NCBI RefSeq assembly: GCF_014697415.1
Contig: NZ_JACJRT010000010.1
Location: 1-35,949 of the forward strand
Direction of reading: 5' to 3'
DNA length: 35,949 nucleotides
Source: Cyanobium sp. FACHB-13342
Lineage (GTDB): Bacteria > Cyanobacteriota > Cyanobacteriia > PCC-6307 > Cyanobiaceae
In this document: positions 524 to 2,099 of the stretch, in pieces
Position numbering within the stretch: the first letter of the stretch is position 1
Layout of the letters: every line of letters starts with the position of its first letter
Translations under genes and position numbers: made by a program
The notes under the pieces: generated by a model
The model's input: the letters and a program-made list of their open reading frames with translations, nothing else
What the model was told of the DNA's origin: nothing
Database searches by the model: none

Positions 524-550
524 GGCGCATTGCGCCTACTCGTGTGAGGA
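524..550 (+). promoter_or_regulatory. Yfr1 small-RNA target site overlapping the porin ribosome-binding site
   Basis: GTGTGAGGA at 542-550 is perfectly complementary over 9 bases to the ultraconserved unpaired loop of the cyanobacterial small RNA Yfr1 (ACUCCUCACAC). The GAGGA part is also the Shine-Dalgarno of the porin, whose ATG is at 555. A 13-base hairpin, GGCGC-ATT-GCGCC at 524-536, sits just upstream and may hold the site open. Published work on Prochlorococcus MED4 found that Yfr1 represses two som porin mRNAs by this type of pairing near the start codon. The complementarity is seen directly; regulation in this organism is inferred. The yfr1 gene itself is not in the window. Confidence 0.7.
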
Positions 551-554
551 ACCC

Positions 555-2099
555 ATGAAACTCTTTAAGCAACTCCTGGTTGCTCCTGCAGCTCTTGGTC
601 TGCTGGCCCCTGTGGCCGCTACCGCTGCCGAGCTCAACCTGGACGGCGTCAACAAGTACGCCGCCGAGGAGCAAGTCACCAGCATCTCCCAGTTCTCTGA
701 CGTCAAGCCCACCGACTGGGCTTACCAGGCTCTGTCCAACCTGATCGAGCGCTACGGCTGCGTTGCTGGTTATCCCGATGGCACCTACAAGGGTGGCCGG
801 GCCATGACCCGCTTTGAAGCGGCTGCTCTGCTCAACGCTTGCCTCGACCGCGTCACCGAAGTGACCGACGAGCTCAAGAAGCTGATGGCTGAGTTCGAGA
901 AGGAACTCGCCATCCTCAAGGGCCGCGTGGACGGTCTTGAGGCCAAAGTGGGCGAACTGGAAGCCAACCAGTTCTCCACCACCACCAAGCTGAAGGGGAT
1001 CGCCACCTTCACCATCGGCGGTGCCTCCAACGGTGTCGTCAACCCAATTGCGAACCAGACCGTTGCTGCTGCAGCAACCGGTCTCCCTGTTGTCACCCCC
1101 GCCGCTGTCCAGGCTGAGCGCGTCGCGTTCAACTACGACGTCAAGCTGATGCTGGACACCAGCTTCACCGGCAAGGACCTGCTGCGCACCACCCTGCGCT
1201 CCGGCAACGCCGGTGGCTCGGTGTTCGGTGGTGGCGGTTCCGCCCTGCTTGAGAGCTACTTCCAGCAGGAAGGCAACGGCAACGACACCGTCACGATCGA
1301 TCGCCTCTTCTACCAGTTCCCGATCGGTGAAAACTTCACCGGTACCTTCGGTGCCAAGGTGAGCCAGGGCGACATGCTGGCCATGTGGCCCAGCGTGTAC
1401 CCCGCTGATTCGATCCTGGATCGTTTCACCACCGCCGGTGCCAACGGTGCTTACAACCTCAACCTGGGTGCCGGTGCCGGTATCTGGTACGAGAAGGAAG
1501 GCTTCAGCGTTAGCGTGAGCTACGTCTCCAACGAGTACGCCGCTCCCTACAGCTACCAAACTGAGATCACCGGTGGCGGCCTCGGTGATGGCAGCACTAC
1601 CACGGTTCAAGTCGGCTACGCCGGCAACAACTGGGGTGCCGCTTTTGCTTACAACTACACCGAAGCGGCCAGCTTGGTTGGCAACTTCAGCTTCCTGCCC
1701 ACCCAACTTGACGTCTACAACACCGCAGGCGTCAACAACTACGCCCTGAGTGCCTACTGGCAGCCTGAGGAGTCCGGTTGGATCCCCTCGATCAGTGCCG
1801 GTGTGGGTGCCCAGCAGTTCAACGGTGACTCCAATGTCTCCGATGATGCTTGGTCCTGGATGGTTGGCCTGCAGTGGGCCGACGCGATCATCAAGGGCAA
1901 TGCCTTCGGCATCGGCCTGGGTGAAGCCAACACCGAATTCAACCAGTTTGCTTTCGAAGTTTGGTACAAGTTCCAGGTCACCGACAACATCAGCGTGACC
2001 CCCGCGATCTTCTGGATCGAGAACGGTGGTGCAGATGTTTTCGCTGGTACTACCGAAGACAGCTTCGGCGCCGTGCTGAAGACCACCTTCAAGTTCTGA
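555..2099 (+). CDS. SLH-domain outer-membrane porin (Som / iron-uptake-porin type)
   Basis: This 514-residue protein has the cyanobacterial porin layout. A signal peptide at about 1-25 ends near VAATAAE. An SLH domain at about 45-100 (FSDVKPTDWAYQAL, AGYPDGTY, MTRFEAAALLN) anchors it to peptidoglycan. A charged coiled coil follows at about 100-138, then a Gly/Asn/aromatic-rich region of alternating beta strands to the end. The last residue is Phe (TTFKF), typical of outer-membrane barrels. The role is diffusion of small solutes through the outer membrane. I chose the ATG at 555 because it starts the signal peptide and follows a GAGGA Shine-Dalgarno; an in-frame upstream ATG at 516 adds 13 unlikely residues. 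The gene has its own leader and terminators and stands alone. Its Shine-Dalgarno lies within a Yfr1-complementary site. Confidence 0.93.
   Translation: MKLFKQLLVAPAALGLLAPVAATAAELNLDGVNKYAAEEQVTSISQFSDVKPTDWAYQALSNLIERYGCVAGYPDGTYKGGRAMTRFEAAALLNACLDRVTEVTDELKKLMAEFEKELAILKGRVDGLEAKVGELEANQFSTTTKLKGIATFTIGGASNGVVNPIANQTVAAAATGLPVVTPAAVQAERVAFNYDVKLMLDTSFTGKDLLRTTLRSGNAGGSVFGGGGSALLESYFQQEGNGNDTVTIDRLFYQFPIGENFTGTFGAKVSQGDMLAMWPSVYPADSILDRFTTAGANGAYNLNLGAGAGIWYEKEGFSVSVSYVSNEYAAPYSYQTEITGGGLGDGSTTTVQVGYAGNNWGAAFAYNYTEAASLVGNFSFLPTQLDVYNTAGVNNYALSAYWQPEESGWIPSISAGVGAQQFNGDSNVSDDAWSWMVGLQWADAIIKGNAFGIGLGEANTEFNQFAFEVWYKFQVTDNISVTPAIFWIENGGADVFAGTTEDSFGAVLKTTFKF

Follow-up and report, generated by a model that had tools for sequence, protein, structure and literature searches.

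Almost all cyanobacteria are reported to have the small RNA Yfr1, although its published targets differ between Prochlorococcus and Nostoc. In Escherichia coli the ribosome-binding site of the OmpF porin is blocked by the small RNA MicF, and the life of an outer membrane protein mRNA, that of ompA, is prolonged by a 5'-terminal stem-loop. The sequences of these two systems are unrelated to the cyanobacterial porin leader described here, which within approximately 31 nt nevertheless seems to hold both devices.

Yfr1 represses PMM1121 of Prochlorococcus MED4 by 4.7- and 3.8-fold in an E. coli reporter, and expression is restored by co-expression of Yfr2, an RNA that counteracts Yfr1 (PMC6778093). 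The MED4 genes PMM1119 and PMM1121 (som) resemble what is proposed for the present locus in the small RNA involved, in encoding a homologous kind of porin and in repression through the 5' UTR (PMC6778093); the present locus differs in being GC-rich and in having a leader with a GGCGC hairpin. Yfr1 also represses alr0834 of Nostoc PCC 7120 in E. coli reporter strains, and this gene likewise encodes a homologous porin with Yfr1 pairing predicted just upstream of its start (PMC6974561). Unlike the organism studied here, Nostoc PCC 7120 is filamentous and has a wider set of published Yfr1 targets that includes cell-wall genes. The 50 most active start sites of Synechococcus CC9605 at sea include one for a porin (PMC5069720), and in S. 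elongatus UTEX 2973 somA is up in high light (PMC6091082). Repression by Yfr1 and its relief by Yfr2 were demonstrated by others in other species, and would apply to the present organism by analogy. Repression of porins by Yfr1 is already published; what the present analysis adds, relative to the open-licence literature searched, is a 5' hairpin conserved by shape and the spread of the pairing site across the class.

The porin leader and its small RNAs

The window, the whole stretch of DNA that was analysed, comprises 35,949 nt of Cyanobium sp. FACHB-13342, and the leader and porin features lie on its forward strand. The porin coding sequence occupies positions 555-2099, from the ATG at 555 to a stop codon ending at 2099, and encodes a protein of 514 amino acids with SLH and OprB Pfam domains. 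The sequence at 524-554, immediately before the ATG, reads GGCGCATTGCGCC-TACTC-GTGTGAGGA-ACCC. Its first part is a mini-hairpin (524-536) with a 5-bp stem and a 3-nt loop (GGCGC-ATT-GCGCC), placed at the predicted mRNA 5' end. The link TACTC (537-541), which in relatives is T-rich and pyrimidine-rich, leads to the Yfr1 box GTGTGAGGA (542-550), separated from the ATG by 4 nt and containing the Shine-Dalgarno sequence GAGGA (546-550). The 13-base hairpin that an earlier note on this DNA had placed immediately upstream of the box is therefore present, but 5 nt away from it. A putative promoter element, the -10-like hexamer CAAGAT (512-517), lies 6 nt before the hairpin; it agrees with TATAAT at only three of six positions and is a weak -10. 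GATTAT stands equally far from the hairpin in two relatives, G106 and G126.

It is highly probable, in our estimation, that this leader is a Yfr1-operated switch of the following form. The porin mRNA would start at about position 524, giving a leader of about 31 nt in three parts: the mini-hairpin at the 5' terminus, then a short link rich in pyrimidines, then the Yfr1 box with its Shine-Dalgarno sequence. The Yfr1 loop would pair with the box and compete with the 30S subunit, causing porin translation to drop; since the Yfr1-box duplex covers the Shine-Dalgarno sequence, pairing should block initiation. Relief of the block could come from a Cyano-1 RNA, taken to be of the Yfr2 type, which has the 11 nt of the target and could titrate Yfr1. 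The end of the mRNA is probably shielded from decay by the 5' hairpin, which may also assist in keeping the box open, and the outcome would be a long-lived message switched at the level of translation.

The genome assembly (99.39% complete, 18 contigs) was searched for Yfr1 with the Rfam model RF01116 at a cut-off of 38 bits, yielding one match above the cut-off (G000:C16:19936-19992, 64.1 bits). Its neighbours are guaB, an ORF of the IMP-dehydrogenase type, and trxA, a thioredoxin ORF, both named from their translations; it so lies between the two genes near which the earlier note had suggested looking for it. All nine bases of the box can pair without mismatch with a part of the loop sequence of this Yfr1, ACTCCTCACAC, as had been claimed for the nine-base pairing that takes in the Shine-Dalgarno sequence. 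The duplex of box and loop has a predicted energy of -16.3 kcal/mol. In a further prediction the box gave -15.1 kcal/mol with the Yfr1 loop and -5.6 kcal/mol with an assumed sequence of the 16S tail, with which the 5' GTGT of the box forms no pairs.

Two copies of ACTCCTCACAC exist in the genome, one being the yfr1 loop and the other the opposite strand of a Cyano-1 RNA (L001; Rfam RF01701, 46.4 bits against a cut-off of 41), presumably a member of the Yfr2 family, a name that appears alongside Cyano-1 in one paper of the literature search. The Cyano-1 RNA therefore carries the whole target sequence, GTGTGAGGAGT, which is the full 11-nt complement of the Yfr1 loop, and Yfr1 is the sole candidate in this genome with the exact 11-mer. 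The sequence TGTGAGGA has 20 copies in the genome, counting both strands, against nine for the reversed pattern. At all three porin N-termini found, those of the window (L010) and of L016 and L017, a copy precedes the ATG by 4 nt; two further porin-like places are short C-terminal pieces. Two more copies fall within RNA genes, one on the opposite strand of yfr1 and one in the Cyano-1 RNA. Five of the remaining 15 copies (L012, L015, L022, L023 and L028) are followed at 4-16 nt by a nominal start codon, which was not taken as a gene start.

The interval between the porin and an upstream ORF named psbD, which ends at position 129, contains further elements. A Shine-Dalgarno-like GGAGGAGGTG, a 17-codon ORF at 303-356 (MSSSCFTQGLLIAENAL) and a terminator-like hairpin with arms at 389-399 and 418-428 form a unit at 291-428 that is kept in L305, L306, L307 and L309, with the frame intact and the amino acids changed; it may be an independent small transcript or a leader peptide. 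An imperfect palindrome, GTCATTGTGCGCAGTGGCACAGG (approximately 458-484), lies upstream of the porin promoter and is a candidate transcription-factor site; a unit resembling it occurs in about five tandem repeats in Synechococcus sp. 8F6 (L307). No match to positions 190-556 of the window was found among phage records.

Conservation of the pairing site

GTGTGAGGA occurs once in the window when both strands are counted. With 0.22 copies expected by chance, and at least one copy in 21 of 100 shuffled versions of the window, the 9-mer match alone is weak evidence, and conservation was assessed by comparison. A porin was present in 140 of 151 genomes (E ≤ 1e-30) and a Yfr1 match, under strict filters, in 119. 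Each of 30 Yfr1 loci from these 119 genomes had the exact 11-mer within approximately 3 kb, in 28 cases inside the central part tested. Porin leaders were scored by the best 9-mer within the last 26 nt. They were a selection taken mainly from listed matches starting at query residue 1 and gave 161 rows, three from the genome itself; after leaving out two that were too short (L151 and L141) and removing one duplicate (L128, identical to L088), 158 distinct family leaders, three of them own, were retained.

The exact 9-mer was kept in 110 of the 158 leaders, which lifts the site above chance; a further 26 scored 8/9, four scored 7/9 and 18 scored 6/9 or less. The pairing site is thus conserved, at 8/9 or better, in 136 of 158 orthologous leaders. 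A control scan 84-110 nt upstream gave nothing above 7/9 in 159 rows and a score of 7 in four, one duplicate row included. Three of the 18 low scorers have a wrong or doubtful start and were kept in the count (L143, L150 and L169); by eye, the full 9-mer is present in L143. In 115 nonredundant leaders preselected at 7/9 or better, the nine box columns were conserved at 0.92, 0.97, 0.99, 1.00, 1.00, 1.00, 1.00, 0.97 and 0.86, against 0.27-0.46 for columns -40 to -6, with the five T-rich columns adjacent to the box at 0.36-0.72. The preselection favours the box columns; the raw scores of the 158 leaders are independent of it. The 9-mer is therefore retained while its flanks drift, the pattern that the earlier note would take as a sign of selection. 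Close relatives also retain it: in 28 of 32 loci from named relatives, the exact 9-mer occurred in 18 leaders and GTGTGAGG, with the last base changed, in nine, one being boxless. With yfr1 present and the 9-mer kept in relatives, the proposal that the same switch exists in this GC-rich relative of Prochlorococcus is supported. In L171 and L190, palindromes with ATAACGGTTAT, which we take to resemble Fur boxes, lie just upstream of the porin leaders.

Outside the family, 25 porin loci were inspected that belong to other families of the class; they were among the best search matches and are not a random sample. Thirteen have 9/9 before a plausible ATG (the second ATG in L271; L258 and L259 are alike), and a fourteenth, L267, has the 9-mer before a start with an N-terminus unlike that of a porin. 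The other leaders scored 8/9 in six cases, 7/9 in three and 6/9 or less in two. The distance from box to ATG varies between 2 and 13 nt in these leaders, some of which, such as L258, have a separate AGGAG in between. This variable spacing and the separate AGGAG argue that the box is not merely a Shine-Dalgarno sequence.

The same observations bear on one alternative, namely that GTGTGAGGA is a good Shine-Dalgarno sequence with a chance extension at its 5' side and that Yfr1 is uninvolved. GAGGA is indeed a plausible Shine-Dalgarno sequence at the right distance from the ATG, and the frequency of chance 9-mers in the shuffled window would suit this explanation. Against it, GTGT, a part dispensable for the ribosome, is as well conserved as GAGG, with values of 0.92-1.00 in the preselected leaders (at least 7/9), and outside the family the box can stand up to 13 nt from the ATG with AGGAG supplied separately. 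A fortuitous extension is accordingly very improbable. The porin box is, from these sequence comparisons, most likely a real control point for porin making, and its retention throughout the class points to a single Yfr1 target held in common, probably an ancestral one.

Porins of cyanophages were compared in the same way. The porin of S-SRM01 (L337 1411-2889) has 47.7% identity to the window porin over 94% of the query; its start was read 18 nt ahead of the annotated position, which gives MKLNQLMLAPVALG, and its leader contains no Yfr1 box, the best match being 4/9 within the last 26 nt. No box was found in the leader of the porin relative of S-CREM1 (L338), also at 4/9. The phage leaders may have replaced the host leader. 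S-PM2 gave a weaker match to the window porin, restricted to SLH, and a porin scan of viral contigs yielded no relative.

Genomes with a low-scoring leader or no Yfr1 match

Of the 18 leaders at 6/9 or less, 14 come from genomes in which Yfr1 was matched (G017, G117, G136, G131 and G061 among them), so the box is sometimes lost while Yfr1 stays. In G025, the guaB-trxA interval (L279 1501-1557) contains a yfr1 remnant that keeps ACTCCTCACAC with both stems gone; it scores 17.9 bits and has a minimum free energy of -1.4 kcal/mol, compared with -21.4 kcal/mol for the Cyanobium Yfr1. All three porin leaders of G025 are boxless, and two have AAGGAG instead. Judged from its sequence, G025 is a case of joint decay of yfr1 and box, in one genome that is the sole found member of its genus.

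No RF01116 match was obtained in 32 of the 151 genomes, and none above the cut-off appeared in the 16 of these that were rechecked with relaxed filters. Use of Yfr1-less genomes as a natural experiment failed as planned: 15 of the 16 rechecked genomes still contain ACTCCTCACAC, and joint decay was found in G025 only. Three genera without an RF01116 match (g9, g11 and g40) keep the box in most of the leaders fetched. By eye, ACTCCTCACAC stands before a terminator-like hairpin in three of three g40, three of four g11 and three of six g9 genomes, at one site each, and at one of two sites in G013; two further g9 sites resemble the opposite strand of a Yfr2-like RNA. An Rfam scan of L226, L229 and L236 gave neither Yfr1 nor Yfr10.

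These genera lend some weight to the idea that the box is targeted not by Yfr1 but by another small RNA with the same loop, Yfr10-like or unnamed, since they keep the box and hold ACTCCTCACAC, often before a terminator-like hairpin. A Yfr10 with the same motif is published (PMC6778093), and Rfam detects Yfr10 in L224. In the Cyanobium genome, however, ACTCCTCACAC occurs only in yfr1 and opposite the Cyano-1 RNA, and we give this alternative little credence for the window porin, if a shade more than a chance extension. Yfr1 itself is preferred as the regulator here. Units of ACTCCTCACAC and a terminator-like hairpin were seen in L226-L228, L230-L232, L234, L237, L238 and L219, from genomes without an RF01116 match; it is possible that they are unlisted Yfr10-like small RNAs.

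The hairpin upstream of the box

Stems were sought in the 115 nonredundant leaders as at least 5 Watson-Crick base pairs with a loop of 3-8 nt, and were compared with block shuffles. Stems ending 0-4, 5-9 and 10-14 nt before the box occurred in 12, 34 and 18 leaders, compared with 3.0, 2.6 and 3.3 after shuffling. This totals 64 leader-bins against 8.9, an approximately sevenfold enrichment in which one leader can contribute to several bins. Bins farther away at 25-29, 60-64 and 70-74 nt (11, 16 and 7 leaders) also exceeded the shuffle maximum. A stem ending within 16 nt of the box was present in 66 of the 115 leaders, 26 more had a stem of at least 5 bp by looser rules (G-U pairs and slightly wider limits), and 23 had none by either set of rules. 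With the limits on loop and distance relaxed, nine of 19 leaders outside the family had a stem, where 2.8 were expected.

The 40 nt preceding the box had a mean z of -1.25, compared with -0.34 for a control stretch, and reached p ≤ 0.05 in 34 leader segments against eight control segments (n = 111 each). The corresponding 40-nt segment of the window was no more stable than its shuffles (z -0.09), and the minimum-energy fold of the isolated segment 502-541 pairs bases other than those of the 524-536 hairpin. The 524-536 hairpin itself was predicted with a probability near 1 when the transcript was made to start at 524, 510 or 480.

The 66 stem-bearing leaders contain 36 different inner stems, with loops of 3-8 nt, and GGCGC/GCGCC recurs in 25 of them. 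This recurrence, together with a position at the predicted start site, is what would be expected if the palindrome at 524-536 were a DNA operator for a transcription factor and not an RNA hairpin. A single operator would hardly be replaced at the same place by so many stems and loops, some requiring G-U pairs; this variety indicates an RNA hairpin, and an operator is unlikely, if less so than either alternative considered for the box. The RNA hairpin is, on comparison of the leaders, conserved by its shape and not its letters, and it is the part added to the published regulation. No hairpin in porin leaders was noted in the titles and abstract openings of open-licence literature, which does not imply its absence from print.

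Among the 66 leaders, a TATAAT-like hexamer ends at a distance of 5, 6 or 7 nt ahead of the hairpin 6, 11 and 5 times, respectively, and 0-3 times at the other listed distances. This peak in relatives suggests that the hairpin stands at the mRNA 5' end, and the hairpin of the window is probably the 5' end of the porin mRNA, with the reservation that its own -10-like hexamer is weak. In MED4, som mRNA is among the longest-lived, with a half-life measured as 28.6 min on arrays and as 13.0 min in qRT-PCR, the median being 2.4 min, although the paper warns that array half-lives are too long for highly expressed genes (PMC2897979). By analogy, the long som half-life fits a protected 5' end, of which it is no proof. 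If the 5' hairpin stabilises porin mRNA, this would help to explain both the durable som transcripts of Prochlorococcus and a translational repressor that spares its target. It may be, although we would put this at slightly under an even chance, that cyanobacterial porin mRNAs share a module, undescribed in the literature searched, of a shape-kept 5'-terminal hairpin, a pyrimidine link and a Yfr1 box that makes them long-lived and subject to switching at translation alone, and that Yfr1, along with other small RNAs sharing its loop, has porin control as its ancestral role throughout the class.

The earlier note had further proposed that the hairpin presents the box as single-stranded. Opening the box was predicted to cost a mean of 4.99 kcal/mol in native leaders and 5.56 kcal/mol with the 5' arm shuffled, a mean difference of 0.57 kcal/mol; the hairpin made the box cheaper to open in 48 of 66 leaders. 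In the window leader, with a start at 524, several box bases are partly paired (unpaired probability 0.15-0.87). The modelling therefore weakly supports the proposal: opening is cheaper in most leaders, but the box of the window itself is not fully free. A CCTC approximately 9 nt before the box occurs in 34 of the 115 leaders (for example L207 and L216), against nine and three in two control stretches. It could pair in cis with the GAGG of the box, imitating the Yfr1 loop, or it may be only part of the pyrimidine tract.
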